64,000 nucleotides of DNA, from the NCBI GenBank assembly GCA_025358125.1, contig JANYKS010000099.1, positions 1 to 64,000 on the forward strand, written 5' to 3'. The DNA is from Actinomycetes bacterium. GTDB lineage: Bacteria > Actinomycetota > Acidimicrobiia > Acidimicrobiales > Ilumatobacteraceae. A program made the translations under genes and the position numbers. Under the pieces are notes generated by a model. That model searched no databases. It had not been told where the DNA came from and saw nothing but the letters and a program-made list of their open reading frames with translations. Below are positions 21,543 through 60,687 of the stretch, piece by piece; within the stretch, counting starts at the first letter, position 1, and every line of letters starts with the position of its first letter.

Positions 21543-21558
21543 TTGACGCTACCGTCAG
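21543..21558. promoter_or_regulatory. Operator-like palindrome TTGAC-GCTACC-GTCAG
   Basis: First exact TGAC-N6-GTCA site of the series, 34 bases upstream of the amidohydrolase start on the minus strand. Confidence 0.75.
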
Positions 21559-25446: not shown

Positions 25447-25462
25447 TTGACGCTACTGTCAG
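25447..25462. promoter_or_regulatory. Operator-like palindrome TTGAC-GCTACT-GTCAG
   Basis: Exact site 30 bases upstream of the enoyl-CoA hydratase start (25493), in the divergent region with the VOC operon. The spacer GCTACT differs by one base from that at 21543. Confidence 0.75.
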
Positions 25463-27639: not shown

Positions 27640-28284
27640 TCAGCTCCACGCGGCGATGAGCTCGTCGGCGGTGACGATCGTGGAGATCATCGACAGCGAG
27701 TTCTCAAGCACCGCGTCGGCGTACCCCTTCGGCAGACCGACCACGCCGTCGCGCACCACGATCACCTGATAGCCAAGGTCGAGCGCGCTGAGCGCTGCAC
27801 CGATGATGCCGAGGTTGAGTGACACTCCCATCAGCACGATCGTGCGCACGCCGAGGTTGCGGACGACGGCGTCGAGTTCGGTGCCGGTGAAGGGTGTCAT
27901 GCCGTGCATCCGGGGGATCGTGATGTCGCCCGGCTGCACATCGAGTTCATCGACGAGGACCACGCCCGGCTGACCGATCTCTGTGGGGCTGTAGCCGACC
28001 TCGGCCCGCCGCTTGGCACCGATCGCGAAGATCCGGCAGTTGACCGCCTGACCGGCGCCGTCGGGCCGTTCCTCCATCGTGGCGTGGAGAACGCGCACGC
28101 CGTGTTCCCGAGCGGCCCGGCACACCCGTCCGGCAACATCGAGCATTCCCGATTCGCGAACCGCGATCGGCAGCGCCGGCAGGATCGCGTCGGCGCCGAC
28201 GATGCCCTTCTGGAGCTCCATCGTGACGATGGCCGTGTGCTCCGGCCGGACGAGTTGGCGAAGGCGTTCCGACGTACTTGACAT
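27640..28284 (-). CDS. Isochorismatase-fold (cysteine hydrolase-like) protein lacking the catalytic residues
   Basis: 214 residues with the isochorismatase fold (AIVTMELQKGIVG; GVSLNLGIIGAALSALDLGYQVIVVRDGV). The normal nucleophile position in TNxC is G159 here, the usual N-terminal Asp is E23, and the usual Lys region reads IPRMHGM. Ordinary hydrolase chemistry is therefore unlikely. ATG 28284 lies inside an exact operator palindrome, implying very short leader or leaderless expression; TTG 28323 is an alternative start. It is part of the inferred regulon. Confidence 0.7.
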   Translation of the reverse strand: MSSTSERLRQLVRPEHTAIVTMELQKGIVGADAILPALPIAVRESGMLDVAGRVCRAAREHGVRVLHATMEERPDGAGQAVNCRIFAIGAKRRAEVGYSPTEIGQPGVVLVDELDVQPGDITIPRMHGMTPFTGTELDAVVRNLGVRTIVLMGVSLNLGIIGAALSALDLGYQVIVVRDGVVGLPKGYADAVLENSLSMISTIVTADELIAAWS

Positions 28285-28293
28285 GATCGTCAA
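28278..28293. promoter_or_regulatory. Operator-like palindrome TTGAC-ATGATC-GTCAA
   Basis: Fully symmetric outer 5+5 half-sites. It contains the complement of the ATG start codon (28284-28282) of the isochorismatase-like gene. Confidence 0.7.
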
Positions 28294-28342
28294 AGGTACC
28301 AGCACGATCCCGTTCGGGCTCAAGATTCCTCTGGCCGCGGGA

Positions 28343-29179: not shown

Positions 29180-29186
29180 ACCCTGC

Positions 29187-29202
29187 TTGACGGTAGCGTC
29201 AA
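29187..29202. promoter_or_regulatory. Operator-like palindrome TTGAC-GGTAGC-GTCAA
   Basis: Symmetric site seven bases upstream of the methyltransferase ATG. Confidence 0.75.
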
Positions 29203-29276
29203 CTCCGAGATCTGCGGGTCTCGGGCCCATCGCTGCCCGGGTGTGTTCGTGTGTTCGTGTGGTCGCCGCCGGAAAT

Positions 29277-30047
29277 TCAGCGGAGGTAGTTGTAGCCGCC
29301 GTCGATCATGAGGGTGGTTCCGGTGATGTAACGGCCGTCGGGGCCGGCGAGGTACACCACGCCACGGCCGATATCGGCCTCGGCGTCGCCCCAATGACCG
29401 ATGGGGATCATCGCGGTTACCTCGTCGACTGCCCCACCGGTGGCGTCGTCGAACTCGGCCGCCCCCGGTGATTCCGCCAGCGGGCAGATGGAGTTGACGC
29501 GGATCCCGAACCGACCCCATTCCACGGCGGCCACCCGGGCAAGGGTGCGCACGGCCTCCTTCGTCATCGCGTAACCCGACATCGCCCCGTGCGGCATGAT
29601 CCCTGACCCCGACCCCATGTTGATCACGCACCCCTTCGCCTCGCGGAGGTACGCAAAGCACACTTGCATGAACCGAAAGCTGGCCATCGGGCCGGACTGC
29701 CACATCGTCTCCATCTCGGCGTCGGTCATCCTCCGGATCGATTGGAACACCTTGGTCTGCGCGTTGTTCACCAGCAGATCGAGGCGGCCCCATTCGGCCA
29801 CAGTGCGCTCGACGCTCGCCTCGATCTGGTCGCGGTGCTCGATGTCGCACTGCAGTGCGATTGCCTCACCGCCACGGCCACGGATCTCACCGGCCACCGC
29901 ATCGCACTTCGAGAACGTGCGGCCGAGCACGGCGACCTTGGCCCCTTCTGCGGAGATGGCAAGTGCCACCCCGCGGCCGACTCCCTGGCCGGCTCCGGTC
30001 ACGATGGCCACTTGACCGTCCAACACGCCGCCGTCTGTTCCACGCAT
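29277..30047 (-). CDS. SDR family oxidoreductase
   Basis: 256 residues: TGAGQGVG at 17-24, NNAQ at 94-97 (NNAG in most members), serines at 146/148, Y159 and K163 in the YAMTK box, and an ending GTTLMIDGGYNYLR. ATG 30047 lies ten bases from an exact operator. The region between it and the divergent hydrolase contains two operators. Likely a hydroxyacyl or alcohol dehydrogenase of the catabolic regulon. Confidence 0.85.
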   Translation of the reverse strand: MRGTDGGVLDGQVAIVTGAGQGVGRGVALAISAEGAKVAVLGRTFSKCDAVAGEIRGRGGEAIALQCDIEHRDQIEASVERTVAEWGRLDLLVNNAQTKVFQSIRRMTDAEMETMWQSGPMASFRFMQVCFAYLREAKGCVINMGSGSGIMPHGAMSGYAMTKEAVRTLARVAAVEWGRFGIRVNSICPLAESPGAAEFDDATGGAVDEVTAMIPIGHWGDAEADIGRGVVYLAGPDGRYITGTTLMIDGGYNYLR

Positions 30048-30057: not shown

Positions 30058-30073
30058 TTGACAGATGCGTCAA
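30058..30073. promoter_or_regulatory. Operator-like palindrome TTGAC-AGATGC-GTCAA
   Basis: Symmetric site ten bases upstream of the SDR ATG (30047). Confidence 0.8.
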
Positions 30074-30115: not shown

Positions 30116-30131
30116 TTGACGGATTCGTCAG
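30116..30131. promoter_or_regulatory. Operator-like palindrome TTGAC-GGATTC-GTCAG
   Basis: Second site of this divergent region, 31 bases upstream of the hydrolase start (30163) and 58 bases from the site at 30058. Confidence 0.8.
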
Positions 30132-30162: not shown

Positions 30163-30969
30163 GTGGATCCCTCTGGCCTTCATGTCGTTCGCCATCACAT
30201 CGACGCGGCCGGCTCACCGGTCGTGCTGGTGCACGGCGCGCCCGACCGGAGCAAGAACTTCGCCCACGTCGTGCACCAGCTGCATGATCTTGCGCTCACG
30301 GTCTACGACCGTCGCGGCTACGGCAAGTCACTTGCTGCCGGCGATCTCGATGGCATGGTTCGGGGTGGGTTCGAAACCCATGCCGACGACCTGATCGAGT
30401 TGCTGGACGGCACACCGTCGGTGGTCGTCGGCCAAAGCGCCGGCGGAACCATCGCGATGCTCGCGGCGACCAAGGCACCCGAACTGTTCGAGGCCCTGGG
30501 GGTGTGGGAACCACCGATGGTTCCGTGGGATTGGTGGATGGGCGACGAGGCCTTGCAGCGCACCATTGCCTGGGCGTCGTACGCCGACCCGCACCAGCTC
30601 GGCGAGGAGTTCAACCGTTCCATCCTCGGGGACGATCGCTGGGAACGGTTGCGTGAGCGGACCAAAGAGCTGCTCCGCGCCGAAGGAGTAGCGTTCCGGG
30701 CCGACATGGCATGCCAGCGTGAGCCGTTCTTGGAACTCGACCACCTGAAGGTGCCATTCCTTGTCGGGTGCGGCACGGTCGCCCCGAGTCCTGAATTTCT
30801 CGACGCCCCTCGGCGCCTGGCCGAACGCACCGGCGCAGAGTTGTTCGTCGCCGACCACGCCGACCACTTCGCTCACACCAATCACCCAGAGGCGTGGGTC
30901 GAACTCGTCCGCAGGACGGTTGCCTTGGCGGACCGCAGCTCCGAGAACCCGATGAGTCGGGATCGATGA
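30163..30969 (+). CDS. Alpha/beta hydrolase
   Basis: 268 residues: VVLVHGAPDRSKNF with the oxyanion HG, YDRRGYGKSLAAG, nucleophile elbow VVGQSAGGTIA with its Ser, and a late ADHADHFAHTNHP with the catalytic His. The start is taken as GTG 30163 (VDPSGLHVVRHH), because the frame upstream crosses the operators. The stop TGA overlaps the ATG of the thioesterase frame (ATGA at 30966), so the two form an operon. Confidence 0.75.
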   Translation: MDPSGLHVVRHHIDAAGSPVVLVHGAPDRSKNFAHVVHQLHDLALTVYDRRGYGKSLAAGDLDGMVRGGFETHADDLIELLDGTPSVVVGQSAGGTIAMLAATKAPELFEALGVWEPPMVPWDWWMGDEALQRTIAWASYADPHQLGEEFNRSILGDDRWERLRERTKELLRAEGVAFRADMACQREPFLELDHLKVPFLVGCGTVAPSPEFLDAPRRLAERTGAELFVADHADHFAHTNHPEAWVELVRRTVALADRSSENPMSRDR

Positions 30970-31773: not shown

Positions 31774-33375
31774 TCACGCGCCGGGTGGCGCTGGTGGCAC
31801 GACCTGGCCGCGCAGCACGTGTTTGAGCACCTTGCCCATCGGGTTTCGCGGGAGCGCGCCGACGATCACGATCCGCTCTGGTGTCTTGTGCTTGGCGAGT
31901 CCTGCGGCCTGACAGCGCTCGGCGAGGTCGTGCACCGTCAGCGAATCGTGACCAGCGGCCAGGACCACGACCGCGCACACGCGCTCTCCCGTTCGGGCGT
32001 CGGGCACGCCGATCACAGCGACATCGGCGATCGCCGGATGCTCGCTGAGTACGTTTTCGATCTCCTGCGCCGAAAGGTTCTCCGCATTGCGAATGATGAT
32101 GTCCTTCAACCGGCCGGTGATCCGCACGAATCCGTCGCGGTCGATGGTGCCGAGATCGCCGGTGCGGAAGTAACCCTCGGCGTCGAACGCCTCGTGGTCG
32201 AGCGAGGAGTCGACGTAGCCGGTGCAGCGCTGCGGTCCGCGAACGCAGAGCTCACCTTCCACGCCTGGAGGATTGACGTTCCCGTCGAAATCGACCGTCT
32301 TGGCGTCAGCACCTGGCGCCATCCGACCGACCGTACCGTCGAACTTCTCCGGCGGGTCGTCTGGACCAAGGCTGGTCGCGGCCGGGAACTCGGTCAGGCC
32401 CCACTGGTTGAAGATCGGTGTGCCGAACACTCGCAGGCATTCTGCGTTGAGTTCGGGAGTGATCGGCGCTCCGCCGGCCTGCAATTGGCGAAGCTTCGGG
32501 AACAATGGTTCGTCGCCGTGGCGATGCTGTGCCGCCAGGTATGCGTGAAAGAACGGAGTCGCCGAGCCGAGCAACGTGGCCCCGCGCTCGGCCATCAGCG
32601 CTGGCGACGTCGCCGGGTCGAACGTCTCGAGCAAGAGCAGTTGGGCGCCGACGCGCAAGTACGCCGTCAAGAGCATGATCCCGCCGATGTGGGTGATCGG
32701 GAACGGCACCGGAAAGAGGTCGTCGATCTCTAGCCCGATGTAGGCGATCTGGGCGTTCGACGAGGCCATCACCGACGAGTCGGTGTGCATCGCCCCCTTT
32801 GGCGTCGCCGTGGTGCCCGACGAGTAGAAGTACCAGCGGACCTCGCTTCCAGGATCGGTCGCGGGCGGAAGTCGTGATGGGTCGGCGCTGGGCAGCGACA
32901 GCCCGGTTCGTGCGGCCTGGTCGGGTTGGGCATCGTCGTTGGTGGCATGATCGCTGGTGGCGACGATCGTGCAATGACGATGACCGACCGATTCCTTCGC
33001 CATTTCGACGAAATCGAAGCCGCGGTACATGCCGGGCACGATGAGCCAGCTGCTGGCGACCTGCTCGGTGATCAGGCTCACCTCGGAGCGACGAAGGATC
33101 GGGAGAATGGGGTTCTGACGCACGCCGAGCCGACACAGCGCTGCCATCAACACGCATGCCTCGAGGTTGCTCGGCAACTGCCAGCTCACGACATGCTCCG
33201 GCCGGACACCGAGTTCGACGAGCCCGGCAGCGACTTCCTCGGCGAGCGTGCGGTACTGGCCGAAGGTGAGCACCCGACCCGACTCGTCGCTCAGGAACAG
33301 CCGTTCGGGCGTGAGTCGGGCGCGCCTGTCGATGAGGCGCCACCAACTCGTGTCGATCGCAACGACGTCGTTCAC
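31774..33375 (-). CDS. AMP-dependent acyl-CoA synthetase/ligase
   Basis: 533 residues, ANL family: FYSSGTTATPKGAMH near 195, QWGLTEFPAATSLG, YFRTGDLGTIDRDGFVRITGRLKDIIIRNAENLSAQEIENVL, and a C-terminal LPRNPMGKVLKHVL with the adenylating Lys near 516. GTG 33375 has AAGGGG upstream. An exact operator lies 31 bases from the start, shared with the divergent hotdog/CoA-transferase operon. It should activate the acid substrate of the regulon. Confidence 0.85.
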   Translation of the reverse strand: MNDVVAIDTSWWRLIDRRARLTPERLFLSDESGRVLTFGQYRTLAEEVAAGLVELGVRPEHVVSWQLPSNLEACVLMAALCRLGVRQNPILPILRRSEVSLITEQVASSWLIVPGMYRGFDFVEMAKESVGHRHCTIVATSDHATNDDAQPDQAARTGLSLPSADPSRLPPATDPGSEVRWYFYSSGTTATPKGAMHTDSSVMASSNAQIAYIGLEIDDLFPVPFPITHIGGIMLLTAYLRVGAQLLLLETFDPATSPALMAERGATLLGSATPFFHAYLAAQHRHGDEPLFPKLRQLQAGGAPITPELNAECLRVFGTPIFNQWGLTEFPAATSLGPDDPPEKFDGTVGRMAPGADAKTVDFDGNVNPPGVEGELCVRGPQRCTGYVDSSLDHEAFDAEGYFRTGDLGTIDRDGFVRITGRLKDIIIRNAENLSAQEIENVLSEHPAIADVAVIGVPDARTGERVCAVVVLAAGHDSLTVHDLAERCQAAGLAKHKTPERIVIVGALPRNPMGKVLKHVLRGQVVPPAPPGA

Positions 33376-33406: not shown

Positions 33407-33422
33407 TTGACGATAATGTCAG
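33407..33422. promoter_or_regulatory. Operator-like palindrome TTGAC-GATAAT-GTCAG
   Basis: Lies between the divergent ligase (start 33375, 31 bases) and hotdog gene (start 33485, 62 bases). Confidence 0.75.
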
Positions 33423-33484: not shown

Positions 33485-34342
33485 GTGGGGAACGAAGCGT
33501 ACGGTGACATCAGGACGATGTCGCCAGAGGAGCATTGGCGGCATTTCGAGAAGTCGTGGGTCGCGTTGCAGAGTTACACGTACCTGGGCAAGGGTACGCC
33601 ATACCTCGACAGGGGTGTCGATCGTGAAACCATGCCGCTCCGCCATGACATGCGCAACAGCACCGGCGGCATCATGGCTGCGCCGCTGTGCATCGCTTCG
33701 CCCGAGCCGTGGTGGCGCGACGACGAATGTGTGCCGGCTCCCGTCACGATGTCGTACGACATCCTCGATCCTGCCCGTGACGTCACGCGCATCGAAGTCG
33801 TGCGCGAGGTGATCAGCATCGGGCGTCAGATGGGGTTCAGCCGCGCCCGCATCGTCGACGCCGACGACCACGATCGCGTGATCGCGATCTCTACCGGCAG
33901 CGGTGTGAGCTTGGGAGACGTGCCGCCCGGGTTCGAACCGGTGGACAACCCGGTCACCGAGCTGACCGATTCGCCCGACCTGCCGCCGTTGCGCGACGTC
34001 TTCGGTGTCGTGGCCGGCCCGGAGGGTGCTCTGCGCATCGAGCGTGTCACCCCAGCGCTGTCGTCACCCCACTCGGCGCTGCACCTCGGTCCGATCAACA
34101 TCGCGCTCGAGGCGGTCGCCATCGACGAACTGGAACGGTCGACGGGAACACGCGACTTCCAGGTGGAACACTGGACGGTGCTGATGGTGAAACCCGGCTA
34201 CATCGGCCCGTTCCGAGCGACCGCGACCGTGCTGGGAGCTGGCGGTGTGCGGGTCGGTGTCGAGGCGACGATGATCGACGAGGGAAACGGCGGCCGGACC
34301 ATTGCGACCGTGTCGGCATCGTTTCGGCGAGTCGGGGGCTGA
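33485..34342 (+). CDS. Hotdog-fold acyl-CoA thioesterase-like protein
   Basis: 285 residues that appear to hold two hotdog halves: an N-terminal GGIMAAPLCIASPEPWWRDD region with MSYDILDPARDVTRIEVVREVISIGRQMGFSRARIVD, and a C-terminal HLGPINIALEAVAIDELERSTG with WTVLMVKPGYIGPFRATATVLGAGG. This resembles PaaI-like thioesterases or duplicated MaoC proteins; the catalytic residues cannot be fixed by eye. It is followed after five bases by a CoA-transferase gene and belongs to an operator-headed operon. Confidence 0.65.
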   Translation: MGNEAYGDIRTMSPEEHWRHFEKSWVALQSYTYLGKGTPYLDRGVDRETMPLRHDMRNSTGGIMAAPLCIASPEPWWRDDECVPAPVTMSYDILDPARDVTRIEVVREVISIGRQMGFSRARIVDADDHDRVIAISTGSGVSLGDVPPGFEPVDNPVTELTDSPDLPPLRDVFGVVAGPEGALRIERVTPALSSPHSALHLGPINIALEAVAIDELERSTGTRDFQVEHWTVLMVKPGYIGPFRATATVLGAGGVRVGVEATMIDEGNGGRTIATVSASFRRVGG

Positions 34343-37942: not shown

Positions 37943-39105
37943 TCAGCGGCGCTGGAAGTCGTAGAGCTGGCGGGCGTTGAGTTCGACCATCTTGTGCACC
38001 TCGTCGTCGGGCACGTCCGCGAAGACCTCGATCGCGTGCTTGCGGCTGTTCGGCCACATCGAGTCGGAATGCGGATAGTCGATCTCGATCGTGATCCGGT
38101 CGACACCGATGAACTCTCGCGAGGCAACGCCGAACCGGTCGTCGATGAAACAGCCCCAGAAGTGCTTGTCGAACAGCTCGGACGGGCGCTGATCGAAGTC
38201 GATCTTTTGGTACCAGCGGTGACGCTCCCACGTGTAGTCGGTGCGCTCCTTGATGTAGGGAATCCAACCGATGCCGCCCTCGGCGAGCACGAACTTCAGG
38301 TCCGGGTGGCGCTGCAGCGCCCCGGAGAACATCAGATCGACCGTGGTCCACATCAGGTTGGTGGCGAACAGGGCGATCGCACGGCGAACGGTGCGTCGAC
38401 CACTGGCATGTTCTGGACGTCGGAGCCGACGAGACCGAACGAGGGCACGAACCCAGATGAGCCGAAGTGCAGCGAGACCGGCAAACCCGTCTCTTCACAC
38501 GCGTCCCAGAGGGGCTCCCAGTGATCGGAGTGGAACGACGGTAGCCCGAGCGGCACGGTCGCTTCAGGGAACGAGATCCCCTTCGCACCGGCAGCAGCGA
38601 TGCGACGCACCTCGGCTGCCGACTTCTCGGCGTCCCAGTACGGTACGAGACCGAGCGGGATGAAGCGGTCCGGGGCGTAACCGTGCCACTCCTCGAGGTT
38701 GAAGTCGTTCCACGCCTTGATGCAGAGCTCGGCCAGCTCCTTGTCCGCGGCTCGACCGAACGTGCCGCCGGCGAATCCAGGGAACGACGGGTAGCAGCAG
38801 GCGGCCTGGACACCGTCGACGTCCATGTCCTGGACCCGCGCTTTCGGGTCGTAGCAGCCGGGGATCATGTCGTCGTAGCGCACCGGCTCCATCCCGAAGT
38901 CCTTCGGCTCCTTGCCGGCCACGGCGTTGAGACCGATCTGGGGGTACGTCCTGCCCTCGTAGCGCCACATCTGATGGCCCTGGGCTTCGACGATCTGTGG
39001 GCAGACGTCGTGGTATTTCGACGGGAGGCGATCGAGCCACACCCGCGGGTGTTCGATGAGGTGGTCGTCGACCGAAACGATCTGCATGTGATCTTGAAGT
39101 GGCAT
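37943..39105 (-). pseudogene. Amidohydrolase-2 family protein, frameshifted in the middle
   Basis: ATG 39105 (MPLQDHMQIVSVDDHLIEHP, with the metal-binding DDHxxE start) reads well to ..NMPVVDAPFAV, then goes out of frame and stops. The other frame continues AIALFATNLMWTTVDLMFSGALQRHPDLKFVLAEGGIGWIP and ends at 37943 (ITIEIDYPHSDSMWP). One base is missing near 38380-38382. The stop of the first frame overlaps an ATG of the second (TGATG at 38351-38355), so coupled translation of two halves is formally possible. An exact operator lies 83 bases upstream. Confidence 0.8.
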
Positions 39106-39163
39106 CAGGACACGTCCTTTCGTGGAACGCGCGTCGAACATGGTTCAATGCGACGGATGAGAG

Positions 39164-39505
39164 ATGACGATGCCAGCACAGCATGAATCTGACAATGCTG
39201 TCAACACCAGCGACGCTCAGGCTTCTCGCCACGCCAAAGACGATGGCGCCGACGAGGTGGTCGTCGACCGCCCGGAGGACGACGATTACGACCTGCTGAC
39301 CTTCGGTGAGGCCGGCGCCCGGCTTGCCGAAGAGGTCGTCAAGCAGCGACGCCATGTGGATCAGTTGCGAGCCGACGGTGTCGGCGATGACCAGATCGTT
39401 GCGTCGGAGCAACGTCTGATTGCGTTACAACAGGCGCAGGAACGGAATCGCAAGCCCTCGCTCGACGAGCTGCGCGAGTCGGGGTTTTTCGGTCGGCGTG
39501 TCTGA
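39164..39505 (+). CDS. Small acidic conserved-type protein preceding a CoA ligase
   Basis: Up to 113 residues. The core EVVVDRPEDDDYDLLTFGEAGARLAEEV is followed by a helical KQRRHVDQLRADGVGDDQIVASEQRLIALQQAQERN and ends DELRESGFFGRRV. I have no named function for it; small proteins of this style accompany FadD-type ligases in actinobacteria. If it starts at ATG 39164 the operator at 39189 falls inside the coding region; GTG 39257 just before the core avoids this. It overlaps the ligase start by eight bases. Confidence 0.55.
   Translation: MTMPAQHESDNAVNTSDAQASRHAKDDGADEVVVDRPEDDDYDLLTFGEAGARLAEEVVKQRRHVDQLRADGVGDDQIVASEQRLIALQQAQERNRKPSLDELRESGFFGRRV
39189..39204. promoter_or_regulatory. Operator-like palindrome CTGAC-AATGCT-GTCAA
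   Basis: Lies between the divergent amidohydrolase (start 39105) and the small protein/ligase unit. It bears on which start the small protein uses. Confidence 0.7.
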
Positions 39506-41585: not shown

Positions 41586-41601
41586 TTGACGATTTCGTCA
41601 A
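41586..41601. promoter_or_regulatory. Operator-like palindrome TTGAC-GATTTC-GTCAA
   Basis: Symmetric site one base after the stop of the DUF35 gene and 28 bases upstream of the truncated amidohydrolase start. Confidence 0.8.
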
Positions 41602-41629: not shown

Positions 41630-42355
41630 ATGAAGATCGAGGACATGATCATGGTCAGCATCGACGACCACGTGATCGAGCCGCCCGATGTGTTCGAGAA
41701 TCACATGCCCGACAAGTACAGGGATCAGGCGCCGAAATTCGTGAGCCTGCCTGGTGGCGCCGACCAATGGGTGTTCCAGGGCGAGGTCATGGGCACCGTC
41801 GGTCTCGGCGCGGTGGCATCGTGGCCGCGTGACGAGTGGAGCTTCGAGCCCGTCGGCCATGCCGAGATGCGCCCCGGTTGCTATGACTTCCACCAGCGGG
41901 TGCGCGACATGAACGCCAACGGTGTGCTGGCATCGCTGAACTTCCCGACGGCGGCCGGGTTCGCGGGTACGTGGCTCGCCGGCAAGCCGGACCGCGAGCT
42001 GTCGGCAATTGCGATCTCGGCCTACAACGACTGGCAGATCCACGAACTCGCCGGCTCGTACCCCGGTCGGTTCATCCCGATGGGCATCCTGCCGTTGTGG
42101 GACACCGACGCCTGCGTCATCGAACTCGAGCGCATTGCCGCCAATGGCTGCACCACCGTCAGTTTTCCGGAGACGCCGTATGCCAACGGGCTACCGAGCT
42201 TCTACCAGGACCACTGGGACCCCGTGCTCGAGGCTGCGCAACGCCTGCAGATCGTCCGGCGTATGGGCCGCCGGGCAAGACGTCAGTTCGGTAGCAGGAC
42301 GCGCTCGATGAACAGTGCCTGCGCTTCGATGATCTGGTCGTCGGTCGGCTCGTAG
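41630..42355 (+). pseudogene. Amidohydrolase-2 family protein, C-terminally truncated
   Basis: ATG 41630 gives MKIEDMIMVSIDDHVIEPPDVFENHMPDKYRD and recognisable amidohydrolase sequence to about 42240 (SFPETPYANGLPSFYQDHWDPVLEAAQRL). Beyond this the frame is arginine-rich shadow overlapping the 3' end of the opposite TetR gene. About half of a normal ~390-residue enzyme, including the C-terminal metal-ligand Asp region, is missing. Its operator and start are intact. It is closely similar in outline to the broken copy at 37943-39105. Confidence 0.75.
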
Positions 42356-43629
42356 TTGCTGCCGACGCCCTCGTTCGGGAAGTGCTCGAGCAGGCCGCTC
42401 AACAGCATGCCGGCGGCTCGGCGATGAAGCGGATACGGCCGCGACGGACCGAACGTGGCGGTGATCGCATGCCCCATGGCACGCACGACGTCGGCTGCTG
42501 GAGAGAGCAGCACCGGATCGACTGGCAAGCCTTCCGTCCAGGCCCGGGTGACCCCCAAATAGAGGCGCTGAGCTGCGAGGAAGCGCCGTAGCCATTCTCG
42601 AAGGCGGGCGCCATCTCGTGTGGCCACCACTGATTCGAACTCCTCGAACAGCGGGCACATCACCGAGCTGGCTTCGTGAGCGAGCGCAGCGATCAGCTCG
42701 AACTTGTCCGAGAAGTAACGGTAGAACGTGCCTCGAGCCAGCGCTGCCTCGGTGACGATCAGGTCGATGTTCGTCGCGTCGTAACCGTGCGCGGCGAACA
42801 CCCGCCCAGCCGCGTCGAGCAGTTGGCGGACGGTGTGCGCCGCCTGTGGGCTCACGTCCTCGAACGGCGTCGGATCGACGATCGAGTCGCGTGGAGGCAA
42901 CGTGGCCAACGGGCCGATGTCGGGCATCGGTGGACGCCCTGGGGATCGTTGGTCCCGCGAGGCAGCGGTCTTTGGGCCTGCGGCGAGCACGGCGGCCGGG
43001 GTGTTGGGAAACAGGAGCAGTTGGACTGCCGTTGCCAGGCTGTCGAGCAACTGGGTCTCGGTGAGACCGGGCCGGTACACATGCCGGATGTAGTGAAACC
43101 GACTCGTGACCGCCAAAACAAGAATCGATACGGGCGAGGTCTCGGTGCCGGCATACCCGGCCGCTTGCAGTGTCCGTCCGAAATGCTCGGTATGAAAATT
43201 GACGAACTGGGCGAGCTTGGGTCGCAAGGGCGCCCTGGGCGAGTTGACGTTGGCCCACTCGACGAACATCGCAGCGTATCGGTCGAACACCCACGACCAT
43301 TCGCCCAGCCACCAGTGCAGATTGTCGTATCCCTCTGCCGTCGGCCCGAGCCGGCCGAGCCGACGCGTGACACGCGACAGGGCGCCGCCCGACTCGTCCA
43401 TCAACTCGATGAAGATCGCGTCCTTGCTCTCGAAGTACTGGTACAGCGTCGCTCGCGATGTCTCTGCAACGGCGGTGATGTCTTCGACGGCGGTGGCGTG
43501 GAACCCCTTCTCGGTGAAGCACAGCAGCGCGGCGTCGATGATTTGCTGGCGGGTCTTGGCGCCACGGGTGCCGATGGTCGGACTGCCTGGGCCGTAGCTC
43601 GCGCGTCGTGTGAATGCTTGATCGCTCAA
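42283..43629 (-). CDS. Double-TetR-domain transcriptional regulator, candidate master regulator
   Basis: 448 residues containing two complete TetR-type helix-turn-helix domains. The first spans 23-72 (GAKTRQQIIDAALLCFTEKGF..TSRATLYQYFESKDAIF), the second about 264-312 (AAHTVRQLLDAAGRVFAAHGYDAT..ARGTFYRYFSDKFELI). Each is followed by a ligand-binding helical region. This is the architecture of mycobacterial Mce3R, a lipid-catabolism repressor. The TTG at 43629 is chosen because LSDQAFTRRASYGPG is the usual N-terminus style. One operator palindrome lies 83 bases upstream and twelve more exact ones flank neighbouring genes, suggesting autoregulation and local control. Confidence 0.8.
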   Translation of the reverse strand: MSDQAFTRRASYGPGSPTIGTRGAKTRQQIIDAALLCFTEKGFHATAVEDITAVAETSRATLYQYFESKDAIFIELMDESGGALSRVTRRLGRLGPTAEGYDNLHWWLGEWSWVFDRYAAMFVEWANVNSPRAPLRPKLAQFVNFHTEHFGRTLQAAGYAGTETSPVSILVLAVTSRFHYIRHVYRPGLTETQLLDSLATAVQLLLFPNTPAAVLAAGPKTAASRDQRSPGRPPMPDIGPLATLPPRDSIVDPTPFEDVSPQAAHTVRQLLDAAGRVFAAHGYDATNIDLIVTEAALARGTFYRYFSDKFELIAALAHEASSVMCPLFEEFESVVATRDGARLREWLRRFLAAQRLYLGVTRAWTEGLPVDPVLLSPAADVVRAMGHAITATFGPSRPYPLHRRAAGMLLSGLLEHFPNEGVGSNYEPTDDQIIEAQALFIERVLLPN

Positions 43630-43712
43630 TGGGTCCCCGTCGGTTCGTCGCGCTGCTGGTTTCCCGATCGAACGAGCATCCGAGCGTGGTCGCCGCGCGA
43701 ATCGGGATATTT

Positions 43713-43728
43713 CTGACTCTGGTGTCAG
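43713..43728. promoter_or_regulatory. Operator-like palindrome CTGAC-TCTGGT-GTCAG
   Basis: Lies between the divergent double-TetR gene (start 43629) and the DUF35/thiolase-like operon (start 43785). Suggests autoregulation of the regulator. Confidence 0.75.
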
Positions 43729-43784
43729 ACTAGGTCCTTGCCGGCCCGATCGAGTTGGTCGCATGCCGACGAGGAGACGACACG

Positions 43785-44204
43785 ATGAGTTTTCAGCCAC
43801 TCCCGGATGTCACGGACGACTCGGCCGCGTTCTGGCAGGGAGGCGTCGACGGCGTCCTGAGGATCCATCGCTGCCGGCAGTGCAGCACGTGGTTCCATCC
43901 GCCAACGCCGGTGTGCCCCGAATGCCTCTCGATGGATGTCGGTCCCGAGGCCACCTCCGGTCGAGCTACGGTGCAGGGCTTCAGCGTGAACATGCAGCCG
44001 TGGGCGCCCGATATGGAGGTGCCCTACGTGGTCGCGGTCGTCTCGGTCACCGATGCGCCCGGCGTTCAGCTCACGACCCGGCTCGTCGACGTGAGCCCCG
44101 ACGCAGTGACCGTCGGAATGCTCGTCGAGGTGATCTTCCAGCACGTTGACGACATCTACTTGCCGCTGTTCAGGCCCGTCATCGAACCATCGGAGGCCTC
44201 GTGA
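43785..44204 (+). CDS. DUF35/OB-fold partner of the thiolase-like aldolase
   Basis: 139 residues with a complete zinc ribbon (CRQC..CPEC) followed by an OB fold (ATVQGFSVNMQPWAPDMEVPYVVAVVSVTD). It shares a stop/start overlap (TGATG) with the thiolase-like gene, so a one-to-one complex is likely. In steroid catabolism DUF35 domains (ChsH2) hold the Ltp2 aldolase in place; the same arrangement is inferred here. ATG 43785 is preceded by GAGGAGA. Operator-controlled. Confidence 0.8.
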   Translation: MSFQPLPDVTDDSAAFWQGGVDGVLRIHRCRQCSTWFHPPTPVCPECLSMDVGPEATSGRATVQGFSVNMQPWAPDMEVPYVVAVVSVTDAPGVQLTTRLVDVSPDAVTVGMLVEVIFQHVDDIYLPLFRPVIEPSEAS

Positions 44205-45412
44205 TGAACACCAACAGGTACCTCGGTCAACGGATCGGAGAGCGCGATGCCGTCATCTCCGGGATCGGCCGCTCGGTCGTCGGTCGGAAACTGGGCCGGA
44301 CCGGTCTCTCATTGACGGTCGAGTCTGCGCTTCGTGCGATCGAGGACGCCGGGTTGTCACGCGACGACATCGACGGCCTGTCGACGTATCCGGGAATGAT
44401 GAATGCGTCGCCGGGCATGTCGCCCTGCGGCGTGACCGACGTCCAGGACGCCTTGCGCCTGAAACTCAACTGGTTCTCCGGAGGTGGCGAGACGCCGGCC
44501 CAGCTCGGCGCGGTGTTCAATGCCGTCGCCGCGGTGGCGGCGGGGCTCGCCAACCATGTGCTCGTGTTCCGTACGGTCACCGAGTCCAGCGCTCAAACCG
44601 CCCACCGTCGGGCGAGTGTCGTTGGCTCGGGTGGCGACCGGATCGGTGGCCCGATGCAGTGGATGGTGCCGTTCCACGCCGTGTCGGCCGCGAACTGGGT
44701 CGGCATCTATGCCCAGAGGTACATGCACGATTACGGCCTCAGCCGTGAGCAACTTGGTCAGATCCCGCTGAATCAGCGCCGTCATGCCGCCCGTTACGAC
44801 GAGGCGATCTTCCGGGAGCCGTTGTCGATGGACGACTACCTGGGCGCGCGCATGGTGTCATGGCCGCTCGGACTGTACGACTGCGACATTCCATGCGATG
44901 GCTCGTGCGCACTCGTCGTCTCCCGGGCCGACGCAGCACCGGATCTGAAACAGGTGGTGCGGATCGATGCGATTGGTTCCGCGCTCACCGGCCGCAACAG
45001 CTGGGACCAGCGCGCCGACCTCACCGAGACAGCCGCCCACGACTGCACCAAGATGATGTGGGCCCGGACCGACCTCACAATCGACGACGTCGACACCGTT
45101 CAGCTCTACGACGGCTTCTCGTTCCTCACGATCACGTGGCTCGAGGCGCTCGGGTTCTTCCCAAAGGGTGAGGCCGGCCCGTGGCTCGAGGCCGGCGAGA
45201 GTCGGATCGGCATCGGGGGCGAAGTGCCGCTCAACACCAACGGCGGTCAGTTGTCGGGTGGACGGCTCCACGGTTACGGCTACCTCTACGAGGCATGCGC
45301 GCAGCTTCGGGGTGACGCGACAGGACGCCAGGTGGAAGGTGCCGAGGTCGCTGTCGTCGGTGCCGGTGGCGGCCCACTCGGCGGTTGCATGATCCTGACC
45401 AAGGACCGGTAG
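44204..45412 (+). CDS. Thiolase-like protein of the Ltp2/SCP-x aldolase type
   Basis: 402 residues of the thiolase superfamily, but the nucleophilic Cys region reads WFSGGGETPAQLG and the usual GHP box reads SGGRLHGYGYLYEA, so normal thiolysis residues are absent. VQLYDGFSF and LHGYGYLYEA keep tyrosines like those used by Ltp2 retro-aldolases, which split beta-hydroxyacyl-CoAs. It is coupled to the DUF35 gene. GTG 44201 is an alternative start. It probably carries out the carbon-carbon cleavage of the local pathway; this is inferred from family and gene order. Confidence 0.75.
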   Translation: MNTNRYLGQRIGERDAVISGIGRSVVGRKLGRTGLSLTVESALRAIEDAGLSRDDIDGLSTYPGMMNASPGMSPCGVTDVQDALRLKLNWFSGGGETPAQLGAVFNAVAAVAAGLANHVLVFRTVTESSAQTAHRRASVVGSGGDRIGGPMQWMVPFHAVSAANWVGIYAQRYMHDYGLSREQLGQIPLNQRRHAARYDEAIFREPLSMDDYLGARMVSWPLGLYDCDIPCDGSCALVVSRADAAPDLKQVVRIDAIGSALTGRNSWDQRADLTETAAHDCTKMMWARTDLTIDDVDTVQLYDGFSFLTITWLEALGFFPKGEAGPWLEAGESRIGIGGEVPLNTNGGQLSGGRLHGYGYLYEACAQLRGDATGRQVEGAEVAVVGAGGGPLGGCMILTKDR

Positions 45413-49813: not shown

Positions 49814-51019
49814 TCAGCCGAGGGCGCCGGCTTCGCGGAGGGCGGCGATCTGGTCCCAATCCATTCCGGCCTCCATCAGGATCATCTCGGTGTCCTGGCC
49901 GAGTTCCGGCGCCGCACCCTGTGGCACGGTCGGTTCGTCATCGAACGACATCGGCGAGGCCACGATGCGGAACTCGATACCCTCGTTGTCAGTGAGCCAG
50001 GGGAGGTACCCGTTCGGCTCGATCTGGGGATGGCTGTGCACTTCCTTGACGTCGAGCACGGGTGCCCAAACGCCACTGAAATGCTCGAGGCGACGCCTCC
50101 ACTCGGCGAGATCGGCCGAACCGAAGATCTCGTCGAGGGTCCGGACGCACTCTTGCTTGTTCTGGAAACGCACCGCCGTGTTGCTGAAGCGCTCGTCGTC
50201 TTTCAGATCGGGGCGCTGCATGACCTCGCAGAGTTCGCCCCAGAACCGGTCGGCCTGGAGCAGCACGAGGTAGATCCAGCGGCCGTCGGCTGTCTTGTAC
50301 CAGTTCGTGAGCGGGTTTCCCGGGCTGGTTCGGTCAGGAATCGTCGGGGCCATGTACGGAGCGGACACGAGGTCGGGGCTCATCGACCACATGCCGACGT
50401 TCATCAGTGACACGTCGACGATCGAGGGCTCACCGGTCCGCTCGCGCTTGAACAGCGCCGTCGAGATCGCTCCGGCCAGGGTGTTGCCGCCTTGCAGGTC
50501 GTAGAACGCGGGTGGCTGGGGCGGAGGAGCGTCGTCACCGATGGAGTCGAGCAGGCGTTTGGCGAAGCCGGAGGTGGCCCAACCGGCGGCGAGGTCGTAG
50601 CCGCCGGTGTCCTTCATCGGACCCTTGCTGCCCCAGCCCGAGCCACGGGCGTAGATGATCTTCGGGTTCGCGGCACGCACGTCGTCGACGTCGAGGCGGA
50701 GTTTCTTGCGCACCTCCGGCAGGTAGCTGGTGAGGAAGACATCGCTGTCGGCCGCGAGCTTGAGCACGACGTCACGCCCCTCGGGCTTGGTGAGATCGAT
50801 CGTGATGCTGCGCTTACCACGGTTCGGCACCTCGTTGAACGGGTTGGGGCCGTTCTTGTCGAGGTTCAACATGTTCTTCAACGCACGCTGCGGGTCCCCG
50901 GTCGGCGGTTCGACCTTGATCACCTCGGCGCCGAGATCGGCCAGGATCGCTCCGGCGGCGGGCACGAAGGTCCACGCGGCGACCTCGAGAACTCGAACTC
51001 CTTCAAGCGGCTTCGACAC
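49814..51019 (-). CDS. Family III CoA-transferase (CaiB/BaiF)
   Basis: 401 residues from GTG 51019, which has GAGGGG five bases upstream. N-terminal LEGVRVLEVAAWTFVPAAGAILADLGAEVIKVEPP and the catalytic Asp region AFYDLQGGNTLAGAI (D174) are present. It would move CoA between carboxylates, a common way to activate or recycle the pathway acid. An exact operator lies 62 bases upstream. Divergent from an acyl-CoA dehydrogenase that also has an operator. Confidence 0.85.
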   Translation of the reverse strand: MSKPLEGVRVLEVAAWTFVPAAGAILADLGAEVIKVEPPTGDPQRALKNMLNLDKNGPNPFNEVPNRGKRSITIDLTKPEGRDVVLKLAADSDVFLTSYLPEVRKKLRLDVDDVRAANPKIIYARGSGWGSKGPMKDTGGYDLAAGWATSGFAKRLLDSIGDDAPPPQPPAFYDLQGGNTLAGAISTALFKRERTGEPSIVDVSLMNVGMWSMSPDLVSAPYMAPTIPDRTSPGNPLTNWYKTADGRWIYLVLLQADRFWGELCEVMQRPDLKDDERFSNTAVRFQNKQECVRTLDEIFGSADLAEWRRRLEHFSGVWAPVLDVKEVHSHPQIEPNGYLPWLTDNEGIEFRIVASPMSFDDEPTVPQGAAPELGQDTEMILMEAGMDWDQIAALREAGALG

Positions 51020-51081: not shown

Positions 51082-51097
51082 CTGACATATGTGTCAG
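51082..51097. promoter_or_regulatory. Operator-like palindrome CTGAC-ATATGT-GTCAG
   Basis: Outer half-sites are fully symmetric. 62 bases upstream of the CoA-transferase GTG. Confidence 0.75.
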
Positions 51098-51269: not shown

Positions 51270-51285
51270 TTGACACTATTGTCAG
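51270..51285. promoter_or_regulatory. Operator-like palindrome TTGAC-ACTATT-GTCAG
   Basis: 51 bases upstream of the acyl-CoA dehydrogenase ATG (51337), or 15 upstream of the alternative GTG (51301). Confidence 0.75.
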
Positions 51286-51336
51286 ACTCACGGTGCGAAA
51301 GTGTCGGATCGGCTCGAATTGAAGGTGAGTGACATC

Positions 51337-52635
51337 ATGGCGTGGGACTTCGAGACCGATCCCGAGTACCAGGAAATGCTCGACTGGGCCGATCAGTTCG
51401 TGCGTGACGAGGTCGAGCCGCTCGATCTCGTGCTCGGCAACCCGTACGACAAGAGCAACCCGCGGGTCATCGAATTGATCAAGCCGCTGCAGCAGATGGC
51501 GCGTGATCACGGGCTGTGGGCCTGTCACCTCGGCCCCGAGCTTGGTGGCCCGGGCTACGGTCAGGTGAAGCTCGCCCTGCTCAACGAGATCCTCGGCCGG
51601 TCCTACTGGGCGCCGACGATCTTCGGTTGCCAAGCGCCCGACTCGGGTAACGCCGAGATCCTGGCGCATTACGGCACTCAGGATCAAAAGACGAGATACC
51701 TGCAACCTTTGCTGAACGGCGAGATCTCGTCGTGTTACTCGATGACCGAACCCCACGCCGGCGCCGACCCGACGTTGTTCACCACCCGGGCCGAGCGAGA
51801 CGGTGACGAGTGGGTCATCAACGGCGAGAAATGGTTTTCGTCGAACGCCCGCTTCGCCGAGTTTCTCATCGTCATGGCCGTCACCAATCCCGACGTCAGC
51901 GCGTATCAGGGGATGTCGATGTTCATCGTGCCCGCCGACACGGCTGGTGTTGACATCATTCGCAACGTCGGCACCGGCACCGAGCCCGAGGAGCAGGGGT
52001 CGCACGCCTACATCCGGTACGAGAACGTGCGCGTGCCGGCGGACCACGTGCTTGGCGGCGAGGGACAGGCGTTCGCGATCGCTCAGACGCGCCTCGGCGG
52101 AGGCCGCATCCATCACGCGATGCGTACCATCGCGACGGTGCGGCAGGCCTTCGACTTGATGTGCGAGCGGGCACTGGCGCGTGAGACCCGCACCGGCCCG
52201 CTGGCGTCACTGCAGATGACGCAAGAGCGCATCGCCGACAGCTGGATCGAGATCGAGCAGTTCCGACTCCTCGTTTTGCGTACTGCGTGGCTGATCGACA
52301 AGCACAACGACTACAAGCGGGTCCGCAAGGACATCTCGGCGATCAAGGCCCTGATGCCGAAGGTGATGTACGACGTCGTCCAACGGTCGATGCACCTCCA
52401 CGGCTCGCTCGGTATCTCCAACGAGATGCCGTTCTCGCACTGGATGGTGTCGGCCGAGTCGCTCGCCCTTGCCGACGGCCCGACCGAGACCCACAAGATC
52501 GTCGTCGCCCGTCAGGTGCTGAAGGAGTATCACCCACATCCTGGCCTGTTCCCCAACGGCCACCTTCCGACGCGCCGTGAGGCTGCCCGTCGCAAGCTGG
52601 CAGTGTTCCTGGAGCACGAAGCAGCGCAGATGTGA
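51337..52635 (+). CDS. Acyl-CoA dehydrogenase family protein
   Basis: About 432 residues from ATG 51337 (MAWDFETDPEYQEMLDWADQFV); GTG 51301 would add twelve residues. CYSMTEPHAGADPTLFTT and NGEKWFSSNARFAEF are the FAD/substrate segments. The C-terminal ending is HLHGSLGISNEMPFSHWMVSAESLALADGPTETHKIVVARQVLK, typical of the ACAD11-like subgroup. It is operator-controlled and monocistronic, meeting the convergent hydratase at 52643. Confidence 0.85.
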   Translation: MAWDFETDPEYQEMLDWADQFVRDEVEPLDLVLGNPYDKSNPRVIELIKPLQQMARDHGLWACHLGPELGGPGYGQVKLALLNEILGRSYWAPTIFGCQAPDSGNAEILAHYGTQDQKTRYLQPLLNGEISSCYSMTEPHAGADPTLFTTRAERDGDEWVINGEKWFSSNARFAEFLIVMAVTNPDVSAYQGMSMFIVPADTAGVDIIRNVGTGTEPEEQGSHAYIRYENVRVPADHVLGGEGQAFAIAQTRLGGGRIHHAMRTIATVRQAFDLMCERALARETRTGPLASLQMTQERIADSWIEIEQFRLLVLRTAWLIDKHNDYKRVRKDISAIKALMPKVMYDVVQRSMHLHGSLGISNEMPFSHWMVSAESLALADGPTETHKIVVARQVLKEYHPHPGLFPNGHLPTRREAARRKLAVFLEHEAAQM

Positions 52636-52642: not shown

Positions 52643-53425
52643 TCAGAGCGCGGCGCGGTCGCGGGCTTCGCCGGCGCTCTGCTCGTGGGCGCGAGTGACG
52701 ACGGCACTCATGTGCTCGCGCAGCGTGTCGCTGACGACGCCCGAAAATCCCGACTCGGTAGCGATCTCGTTGTGCCGTCGGCGGGCATCGTGAAGGGGGA
52801 GCGCGCCGGTCTCGTCCCAGTCGCGGCGCATGGTCGCAATCATCGTCGGGTCCTGCTCGGCGATCGCGCAGGCGAGGTCGAGCGCTGACGACAACAGATC
52901 GGCGTGTGGCACGACATGGTTGGCGAGACCGATCCGCCAGGCCGTGTCGGCGTCGACGAAGTTGCCGGTCATCGACATCTCCCGAGCCCTGGCCATGCCG
53001 ACCCGGCGGGGCAGGTCGATGAGGACTGGGCCGGGGTACACGCCGACGCGGACGTGGGTGTCGGCGAATCGGGCACGCTCGGAGGCGACGATGAAGTCGC
53101 AGGCGAGCGCGACCTCGAAGCCGCCAGTGACAGCAGGACCGTTGACGGCCGCGATCGTTGGCACCGCCGATGTGGCCACCGCCTTGACGAAGGGCGCGAG
53201 ATCGGCGAGCCGGTCGGTGCCAAGGTTGCGCAGGTCGAGCCCGGCGCAGAATGCCGGGTCGCTACCGGTGATCACGATGCAGCGGGCGTTCTGGCAGGCG
53301 ACCATGGCATCGACGAGAGCGGCGGCAAGCTCTACGTTGACGGCGTTGCGCGCCGCGGGGCGGTTGAGGGTGACAACGACGACGCCGTCGTCACGCCGCT
53401 CGACGAGCACCGTGGGTTCGCTCAC
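52643..53425 (-). CDS. Enoyl-CoA hydratase/isomerase family protein
   Basis: 260 residues from GTG 53425, whose GTGA overlaps the stop of the upstream SDR. ITGSDPAFCAGLDLRN and VNGPAVTGGFEVALACDFIVASE make the oxyanion hole; the region FADTHVRVGVYPGPVLIDLPRRVG follows. Cotranscribed with the SDR from an operator-headed promoter at 54254. Hydratase versus isomerase activity is undecided. Confidence 0.85.
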   Translation of the reverse strand: MSEPTVLVERRDDGVVVVTLNRPAARNAVNVELAAALVDAMVACQNARCIVITGSDPAFCAGLDLRNLGTDRLADLAPFVKAVATSAVPTIAAVNGPAVTGGFEVALACDFIVASERARFADTHVRVGVYPGPVLIDLPRRVGMARAREMSMTGNFVDADTAWRIGLANHVVPHADLLSSALDLACAIAEQDPTMIATMRRDWDETGALPLHDARRRHNEIATESGFSGVVSDTLREHMSAVVTRAHEQSAGEARDRAAL

Positions 53426-54195
53426 GAGATACCCCCATCGACCTGCAGGATCGCTCCTGTCGTCCAACTCGATGCGTCGCTTGCGAAGTACAGCGCGGCG
53501 CCGATCACCTCGTCGGGTTCCCCGGGGCGCTGCATCGCGTACGTCTGCTTGAGGCGGGCCCGGACTTCCACGAGATCCCAGGCGTCGCTGATGTCGGTGA
53601 GGAAGGGTCCGGCCTGGATGCAGTTGACCCGCACCTTCGGGCCGAATGCCTTCGAGAAACCGATCGTCATCGCGTTGAGGCCGGCCTTTGCGGCGGCGTA
53701 CGGGATGATGGTCGGCGTTGGCCGTATCGCCCCACCGCTGGACACGTTGATGATCGAGCCACCGTCGCCCTCAGCCATGCGCGCGCCGACGGTCGCCATC
53801 AGCCGGAACGGGCCCTTCAGGTTGACGTCGAACACCTTGTCGTACAGCGATTCGGAATGACCGGCGAGACTGTCGTACAGCGGTGACATGCCGGCGTTGT
53901 TGACCAGCACGTCGATCCGGCCGAACCGCTCGTATACGGCGTCGACCATCGCGTCGATCTGCTGCCAGTCACCGACGTGACAGGCGATCGGCATCGCTTG
54001 GCGGTCGGTGGTGCTCTCGATCTCGCTGGCCAGCGCAGTGCAGTTGTCGATCTTGCGGCTGGCGATGACGACGTGCGCGCCGACGCCGACAAAGGCCCGA
54101 ACCATCTCCTTGCCCAGGCCGCGTGAGCCACCGGTAACGACCGCGACCTTGTCGGTCAGCAGGAATCGGTCTCTCGGATCTGAAGTGTTTGGCAT
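53422..54195 (-). CDS. SDR family oxidoreductase
   Basis: 257 residues: TGGSRGLG at 21-28, NNAG at 99-102, S152/S153, Y166 and K170 in YAAAK, and an ending WTTGAILQVDGGIS. A classical NAD(P) alcohol/hydroxyacyl dehydrogenase. It lies 58 bases from an operator shared with the divergent Gfo/Idh-type gene and is coupled to the hydratase downstream. Confidence 0.85.
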   Translation of the reverse strand: MPNTSDPRDRFLLTDKVAVVTGGSRGLGKEMVRAFVGVGAHVVIASRKIDNCTALASEIESTTDRQAMPIACHVGDWQQIDAMVDAVYERFGRIDVLVNNAGMSPLYDSLAGHSESLYDKVFDVNLKGPFRLMATVGARMAEGDGGSIINVSSGGAIRPTPTIIPYAAAKAGLNAMTIGFSKAFGPKVRVNCIQAGPFLTDISDAWDLVEVRARLKQTYAMQRPGEPDEVIGAALYFASDASSWTTGAILQVDGGIS

Positions 54196-54253: not shown

Positions 54254-54269
54254 CTGACGGATGTGTCAA
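54254..54269. promoter_or_regulatory. Operator-like palindrome CTGAC-GGATGT-GTCAA
   Basis: Last exact site of the series. Nine bases before the Gfo/Idh-type ATG (54279) and 58 from the divergent SDR. Confidence 0.75.
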
Positions 54270-54278: not shown

Positions 54279-55439
54279 ATGAGTGATTCGCAGCAGCCGA
54301 TTCGAGACGTGCCGATTCGAGACGTGCCGATTCGTGAGGTGCCGATTCGTGAGGTGCCGATTCGTGTCGGGCTGATCGGGGTGGGGTGGGGCTCGGTGGT
54401 GCAGACGCCGGCGTTCCGGATGGCGCCGCCGTTCGAGGTTGCGGCGCTCTGCTCGCGTCGTGAAGAGAGCGTCCGGGCGGCCGGACAGAATTTGGGCATC
54501 GACGACGTCAGCACCGATTGGCGAGCGTTCGTGCAGCGCGACGATCTCGACGTGATCTCGATCTGCACCCCGGTCGACCTGCACCACGAGCAGGCCATGG
54601 CGGCGATTGCTGCCGGCAAGCATGTGCTCGTCGAGAAGCCGGTGGGGCTCGACGCCCGCCAGACGGGTGAGATGCTGGCCGCAGCCGAACAGGCCGGCGT
54701 GGCGCACGCGGTCTGTTTCGAGGGCCGCTGGGAGCCGTCGCGGCTCAAGATCTGGGAGATGGTGCGTGCCGGCCATCTCGGTCAGCCCTACATGGCCATG
54801 GCCCGCAGCGGTGGCGACTTCTGGCACCCGACACGCGGGCTGCAATCGGAGTGGATGTACAAGCGGGATCAAGGTGGCGGCTACCTGATGGGCATGGGGT
54901 CGCACGACCTCGATTACGTGTGCGCGATGTTCGGCGAGCCCGAGGCAGTGTGTGCCGACGTACGGACAACGGTGACCGAGCGAGCGCGCCCCGATGGGTC
55001 CGTTGTCGACGTCGACGCCGACGACACGTCGCTGCTCCTCATGCGGATGCAGAACGGCATGATCGTCAGCGTCATCACGACCGCCGTCGCGTTCCAGCGC
55101 AACTTCCGGGCCTTCGAGGCGTATGGCAGCGAGGGTTCGTTGACCATGGACGGGCTGCTGATGGGAGGAGAGGCGGTCGAGGTGATCTCTGGCTCGATCA
55201 CCCAGGACCACGCTCTCGTCGTACCGAGCAGCGACCGCAAGCCGGCGAGCGGCATCGAACCGCCCAAGCGCCGTGCTGCGGGCGCGATCGTTTCGCTCGC
55301 TCTCATGTTGGAGGATTGGTTGCCGGCGTTGAGTGGACAACCGACGATCGCGCCGACGCTCGCCGACGGCCACCGGGTGGCCCGCATCGTCGACGCCGCC
55401 CGTCGGAGTTCCGATGGCGCCGGATGGGTCACGCTCTGA
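54279..55439 (+). CDS. Gfo/Idh/MocA-family oxidoreductase with an N-terminal pentapeptide repeat
   Basis: 386 residues. After MSDSQQ come five PIR(D/E)V-like units, then the Rossmann start VGLIGVGWGSVVQTPAF and EKPVGLDARQTGEML with the catalytic-type Lys-Pro. The second domain (GGDFWHPTRGLQSEWMYKRDQGGGYLMGMGSHDLDYV) carries the usual active-site Asp/His. It reduces or oxidises a sugar- or cyclitol-like alcohol. It is operator-controlled. The N-terminal array is unlike other members, which start within a few residues of the first strand. Confidence 0.8.
   Translation: MSDSQQPIRDVPIRDVPIREVPIREVPIRVGLIGVGWGSVVQTPAFRMAPPFEVAALCSRREESVRAAGQNLGIDDVSTDWRAFVQRDDLDVISICTPVDLHHEQAMAAIAAGKHVLVEKPVGLDARQTGEMLAAAEQAGVAHAVCFEGRWEPSRLKIWEMVRAGHLGQPYMAMARSGGDFWHPTRGLQSEWMYKRDQGGGYLMGMGSHDLDYVCAMFGEPEAVCADVRTTVTERARPDGSVVDVDADDTSLLLMRMQNGMIVSVITTAVAFQRNFRAFEAYGSEGSLTMDGLLMGGEAVEVISGSITQDHALVVPSSDRKPASGIEPPKRRAAGAIVSLALMLEDWLPALSGQPTIAPTLADGHRVARIVDAARRSSDGAGWVTL
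54297..54371. repeat. Five tandem 15-bp repeats within a coding region
   Basis: Units of CCGATTCGWGASGTG encode PIRDV, PIRDV, PIREV, PIREV and PIRVG. Units 1 and 2 are identical, as are 3 and 4. The last unit merges into the first beta strand of the Rossmann fold. Confidence 0.85.
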
Positions 55440-56482: not shown

Positions 56483-56491
56483 CATCGTTAA
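56476..56491. promoter_or_regulatory. Degenerate operator CTGAC-ATCATC-GTTAA
   Basis: One mismatch in the right half-site. It contains the ATG of the DUF2889 gene, as the exact site at 28278 contains that of the isochorismatase-like gene. Confidence 0.4.
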
Positions 56492-56503
56492 CAATAGAGG
56501 GTC

Positions 56504-60660: not shown

Positions 60661-60662
60661 GC

Positions 60663-60675: not shown

Positions 60676-60687
60676 GCTATCATTAGT

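Follow-up and report, generated by a model that had tools for sequence, protein, structure and literature searches.

The question raised by this locus is which regulator reads a palindrome, TGACN6GTCA, that recurs throughout the window (the whole 64,000-nucleotide stretch analysed here) in front of genes of apparently degradative function. A sequence-only reading had proposed, from its position, a protein carrying two TetR helix-turn-helix (HTH) domains as the autoregulated master regulator of this zone. The corresponding gene, called D hereafter, encodes 448 residues from a TTG start at 43629, a start supported by the fact that orthologues align from residue 1. The Pfam TetR_N model matches D twice, both times above its curated cut-off and with 102.3 bits for the whole protein, so that the two HTHs were recovered, their limits moving from residues 23-72 and 264-312 to those given in the table. 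Against the NCBIfam KstR model, D reached 45 bits for a cut-off of 280, and no NCBIfam equivalog attained its cut-off for D or for S, a single-HTH relative described below.

We counted 17 copies of TGACN6GTCA in the window while 1.35 were expected, and none of 100 shuffles reached 17. Pattern searches of the whole genome, with the reversed pattern as a control, gave 92 copies in 4.06 Mb versus 24 for the control, and the stricter form YTGACRN4YGTCAR gave 21 versus 1. A fuller form, YTGACN6GTCAR, has 13 copies in the window, located where genes start or between divergent genes and mostly 17-97 nt upstream of the starts. The motif string was absent from the literature that we searched. The neighbouring genes encode amidohydrolases, acyl-CoA dehydrogenases, enoyl-CoA hydratases, SDRs, AMP-ligases, CoA-transferases, a thioesterase and DUF35/thiolase proteins, i.e. 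a set suited to the degradation of CoA thioesters. By analogy, such a putative regulon recalls fat- or steroid-like degradation genes, and the ChsH2-type DUF35 and thiolase-like pair resembles steroid side-chain aldolases.

Table. Regulator gene, its HTH domains, motif copies and probable targets in the window
Feature	Position	Strand	Basis or remark
D, double TetR regulator	42283..43629	-	Pfam TetR_N twice; orthologue alignment; model pLDDT 85, pTM 0.84
D first HTH, recognition helix TSRATLYQYF	43402..43542	-	residues 30-76; TetR_N 58.7 bits; alignment
D second HTH, recognition helix LARGTFYRYF	42682..42822	-	residues 270-316; TetR_N 55.7 bits; conserved across homologues
Candidate operator TCTGACN6GTCAGA, perfect palindrome, of D and divergent DUF35/thiolase pair	43712..43729		before seven orthologues, one mismatched
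Divergent pair, probable targets: ChsH2-type DUF35 (43785-44204), thiolase-like (44201-45412)	43785..45412	+	Pfam; neighbour kept in orthologue loci
Motif before amidohydrolase 20297-21508	21543..21558		kept in G072, G150
Motif between glyoxalase-like gene 24464-25390 and enoyl-CoA hydratase 25493-26263	25447..25462		both orthologues keep copies
Motif at start of isochorismatase-like gene 27640-28323	28278..28293		22 nt before G149 orthologue
Motif at start of methyltransferase-like gene 28343-29230	29187..29202		pattern match
Motif between SDR 29277-30047 and alpha/beta hydrolase 30163-30969	30058..30073		pattern match
Second motif, SDR / alpha/beta hydrolase intergenic region	30116..30131		G150 also with two copies
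Motif between AMP-ligase 31774-33375 and gene 33485-34342	33407..33422		kept in G072, G149, G150
Motif before amidohydrolase 38353-39141	39189..39204		kept in G072, G150
Motif before amidohydrolase 41630-42355	41586..41601		orthologue distance 54 nt in G149, 26 nt in G150
Motif before CoA-transferase 49814-51019	51082..51097		also before orthologues in G072, G068
Motif before acyl-CoA dehydrogenase 51301-52635	51270..51285		also before G072 orthologue
Motif between SDR 53422-54195 and oxidoreductase 54279-55439	54254..54269		before oxidoreductase orthologue in G018, G079

One of these copies, whose 16-bp core covers 43713-43728, stands exactly 83 bases from the start codon of D, as had been claimed, and is common to this gene and the divergent DUF35/thiolase-like pair. 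A -10-like element (TAGTCT) overlaps it on the D strand, an arrangement that would fit repression. D had also been described as the only regulator of the motif-rich zone. This stands for about 21.5-54.3 kb of the window but not genome-wide, since contig C39, motif-rich as well, has a second TetR gene beside a motif copy. Within the window, the TetR gene at 59854-60660 was tried as regulator of the zone and rejected: it adjoins an ABC transporter, has no strong motif nearby, and the motif regions of the orthologue genomes showed no counterpart of it. This gene (TetR_C_1 type) is divergent from an ABC transporter pair, and the whole of 59854-62483 looks like a separate, motif-free efflux system.

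Several other features of the region were recorded. A one-mismatch copy of the motif, CTGACATCATCGTTAA, is present at 56476-56491 between the genes 55481-56509 and 56504-58033, and perfect copies occur at the same junction in G072. The C-terminal piece of a cytochrome P450 at 26283-26681 is apparently a gene remnant within the regulon. The amidohydrolase at 37943-39141 is encoded in two pieces by neighbouring genes (38353-39141 and 37943-38353), with the same split in G072 and G150. The amidohydrolase at 41630-42355 breaks off at about residue 209, at the point where it meets the 3' end of D, and its orthologues in G072, G149 and G150 are about 200 residues longer; candidate explanations are a rearrangement or an assembly join at about 42257.

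If D reads the motif, the two should be found together in related genomes, and this was the check proposed for the link. We searched for D in 149 relatives and counted YTGACRN4YGTCAR in the same genomes, again with the reversed pattern as a control. A full-length D orthologue was found in 5 of the 91 family genomes including the window's own (G000), the four others being 56-60% identical and belonging to genus g11 (three) and genus g20 (one). Hits and control hits in these five genomes were 21/1 (own), 26/7, 20/5, 38/2 and 21/8, for a mean of 4.5/3.0 in the remaining 86. Ranked by motif excess, the five D genomes thus occupy the first to fifth places of 91; genomes within a genus being non-independent, this rank statistic overstates the strength of the association, but three within-genus contrasts still agree with it. 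In g11, three D genomes contain 20-26 hits versus 1 each in three genomes without D; g20 shows 38 hits with D versus 2-3 without, and g1 shows 21 versus 3-10. Two further D genomes came from a separate scan, with 26/4 (G149) and 26/1 (G150). We also looked for the reverse case, a motif excess in family genomes devoid of D, and observed none of comparable strength, the mild ones being 9/0 in G023, 7/0 in G024 and 8/0 in G053. The link between D and the motif is therefore supported both across the family and inside three genera, and D is a likely repressor of the motif genes because related genomes without D are also without the sites.

The candidate operator of D is itself conserved. TAGTCTGACN6GTCAGA, with or without its first letters, precedes D in six genomes, and in a seventh one arm is mismatched. 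The palindrome forms a conserved block in an otherwise diverged intergenic region, which lends weight to the autoregulation proposed for D. The motif has also been kept in front of the probable targets: in G072, many orthologues of the window targets are 65-88% identical and still have the motif upstream in a rearranged gene order, and in G149 and G150 the target orthologues likewise keep motif copies despite the changed order. In G149, sites lie 22-57 nt before the orthologues of five window targets.

Co-occurrence, however, does not designate D alone. S, the second TetR mentioned above, has one HTH and is encoded at G000:C39:33881-34639 in another motif-rich stretch, with a motif at C39:33839-33852. 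It is flanked by a divergent enoyl-CoA hydratase and a thioesterase-like gene, an order that is kept in the orthologue genomes and broken in G149. Among the 149 relatives, S occurs in the same five genomes as D, at 59-69% identity, and its promoter carries the motif in all five, once with a mismatch. Because S co-occurs equally and has the motif in its own promoter, D is not the sole candidate; co-occurrence alone cannot choose between D and S, and we dropped it as a proof for D once S was found. Of the claim that D is the master regulator, the motif link and the autoregulation are thus retained, while the status of sole candidate is not.

Could S be the only reader, as an ordinary homodimer, with D as one of its targets, serving a different function or recognising sites of a different type, as Mce3R does? 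TetR homodimers usually bind symmetric palindromes, and, besides the distribution of S and its promoter motif, distant S homologues from Mycobacterium helveticum and Williamsia have two perfect motif copies each in their promoters, both genomes also containing D homologues. On the other hand, S was found neither in the G149 assembly nor at its usual place (this is one draft genome), where a GlcD-like gene takes the S position, and G149 still has D, 26 sites and sites before five conserved targets. The hydratase next to this place is 76% identical and keeps its motif, so the copy in the S promoter may belong to the divergent hydratase. In addition, no site was found before the S homologues of G047 and G094, which are devoid of D, and G047, whose S homologue is 51% identical, shows 1/3 hits. 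Finally, S sites are often imperfect in one arm while D sites are perfect in six of seven genomes. We thus regard S as the only reader as improbable. The absence of S from G149 tips the balance towards D as reader, S being a plausible co-reader.

D and S may also be related repressors that respond to different ligands and read one set of sites, which is a special case of D reading the motif. Their recognition helices are similar (SRATLYQYF and ARGTFYRYF in D, SRASFYTYF in S) and the motif is present in both promoters in all five genomes. In a phylogenetic tree, the two D domains and S form, with single D-like genes (M), a group distinct from six other TetRs encoded in the genome (94/89), M being closest to the second half of D (85/68), although the tree is biased towards that grouping because resemblance to D was the criterion by which the D-like genes had been selected. 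Against common reading, G149 indicates that S is dispensable for keeping the sites, and the D sites are of the TCTGAC/TCTGAC type while the S sites are CTTGAC with one weak arm, so that preferences may differ. Sharing of the sites by the two proteins is best described as possible rather than probable. That D reads the motif, be it alone or together with S, is likely from the comparative data. In the most likely scheme, D would be a probably autoregulated repressor of a large degradation regulon and S a co-regulated relative that may share its sites.

Regulators of other families, e.g. CRP, also use palindromes with such a size and spacing. A third regulator could therefore read the motif, D and S being targets only, and our inspection covered part of the genes in these genomes. 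Yet, in the regions examined, no regulator other than D and S was recognised at motif-rich loci, and motif copies surround D-like genes elsewhere in the order, which makes such a third regulator very unlikely.

How would D bind a symmetric site? The AlphaFold model of D (pLDDT 85, pTM 0.84) displays an all-helical TetR fold with a ligand domain and matches EthR and many other TetR structures. Its best counterpart is DNA-bound Mce3R (PDB 9b7y), with a Z score of 21.9 over 360 residues (rmsd 5.3 A), the next entry having a Z score of 14 for one domain; Mce3R is also the best sequence match of D in the PDB. In the model, the two D units would thus form an Mce3R-like single-chain pseudo-dimer, in agreement with the pseudo-dimer fold proposed earlier. 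Mce3R (Rv1963c, Mycobacterium tuberculosis) has, like D, two TetR units per chain; it is autoregulated and controls lipid or sterol-related genes, a likeness to the role proposed here for D. According to its authors, it was the first double TetR with a structure (PMC11667970), and it is the only other double TetR that our literature search returned. Its operator consists of two 25-bp sites that are not palindromic; a single chain places both HTHs on one operator, where they enter adjacent major grooves some 32 A from each other (PMC11667970).

The likeness of D to Mce3R therefore holds for the predicted fold, over the whole chain, but not for the operator. The two proteins share 17% identity, and the HTHs of Mce3R are unlike each other while the helices of D are alike and a perfect palindrome lies upstream of its gene. 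Two unlike HTHs would be expected to favour sites with mixed arms. Across 78 sites, we found no significant asymmetry between the arms (40 mixed among 68 versus 33 expected, P=0.09, with no single position significant), a result which fits alike helices and equally a homodimer. Moreover, Mce3R controls a few operons and D is linked to 20-38 sites per genome, and no mce genes were recognised near D in the window. D is an Mce3R-like double TetR by architecture; we did not file it as an Mce3R orthologue because the motif linked to it is palindromic without significant arm asymmetry. In other respects D resembles KstR and KstR2, TetR repressors with one palindromic motif and a large lipid or sterol regulon that includes their own gene (PMC1995591, PMC4482099), but these have one HTH per chain, act as homodimers and use other motifs. 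S and the M-type relatives, which group with the D domains and sit among motif copies, also differ from D by having one HTH per chain and are presumably homodimers.

As the helices of D are alike, one chain would be able to read a symmetric site whose arms are separated by about one turn. D would then be a repressor made of two fused TetR units, whose two similar HTHs each take one TGAC arm of YTGACRN4YGTCAR. From the one site overlapping the -10-like element, it would repress its own gene together with the divergent DUF35/thiolase pair, and from the scattered sites, mostly 17-97 nt before starts, the CoA-thioester degradation genes. A CoA thioester or another pathway intermediate would lift the repression. 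We give about an even chance to one chain per palindrome. Two chains could instead contribute one HTH each and leave their other HTHs for a second site, leading to DNA looping: Mce3R is homodimeric in solution and in the cryo-EM structure, with looping suggested (PMC11667970), and some intergenic regions contain paired sites (30058/30116, 51082/51270). Each Mce3R chain nevertheless fills one operator with both its HTHs, the D model matches the Mce3R chain over its whole length, and the operator of D is a single copy, so that the two-chain arrangement appears rather unlikely.

Outside the family, motif excess tracks D-like proteins among 58 genomes of other families of the order (Mann-Whitney P=7e-5), a further observation in favour of D over S. 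In these genomes, the loose form YTGACN6GTCAR is inflated by a frequent and different palindrome, TTGACCGN2CGGTCAA (e.g. in G127, G117, G099 and G100), which is probably the operator of another regulator; the R and Y inner positions were therefore required. The D-like loci have 22 copies versus 0-1 for the control in about 160 kb, some loci having been picked for high counts and several of the genes being single-HTH. More distant D homologues, 34-46% identical, are found in Frankia, Pseudonocardia, Mycobacterium, Nocardia, Rhodococcus, Streptomyces, Nocardioides and an Acidobacteriota contig. No such palindrome precedes the homologues of Mycobacterium, Nocardia, Rhodococcus and Pseudonocardia, and the motif is not in genome-wide excess in three genomes (mycobacterial, rhodococcal and nocardial) that contain D homologues. 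For the Frankia homologue, a copy with one mismatch lies across the start codon, a place at which coding constraint could account for it. Parafrankia soli, with a D homologue and no S, has only 1 loose copy in the 140 kb around D.

These data allow us to sketch an origin, tentatively and as a rather doubtful proposal when taken in full: the double TetR would have arisen by fusion within a sub-clade of single TetRs already reading TGACN6GTCA. With its units now covalently joined as a pseudo-dimer, it would still occupy the symmetric operator of its ancestors, at 20-38 sites per genome, and would share these sites with S, so that two repressors, possibly answering to two ligands, would switch a large degradation regulon. 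While the Mce3R operator is asymmetric, comparative genomics ties D, another double TetR, to a symmetric one, which suggests how a homodimeric repressor can be fused without change of site, and D, S and the single M-type relatives constitute a natural set for testing what is gained from fusion. The motif also provides a sequence rule by which a degradation regulon of 20-38 sites is predicted for uncultured Acidimicrobiia; it has relatives in Frankia and on the Acidobacteriota contig. In Frankia sp. QA3 (G152:C1:1842293-1842391), six motif-like copies follow one another at an exact 17-bp spacing and are more likely a tandem repeat than operators. The Acidobacteriota contig (G171:C51, JAGWSF010000109.1, 154668 bases), from a MAG, has 18 motif copies versus 0 for the control and encodes a double TetR together with two S homologues; candidate explanations are that the regulon was transferred horizontally or that the contig was misbinned.
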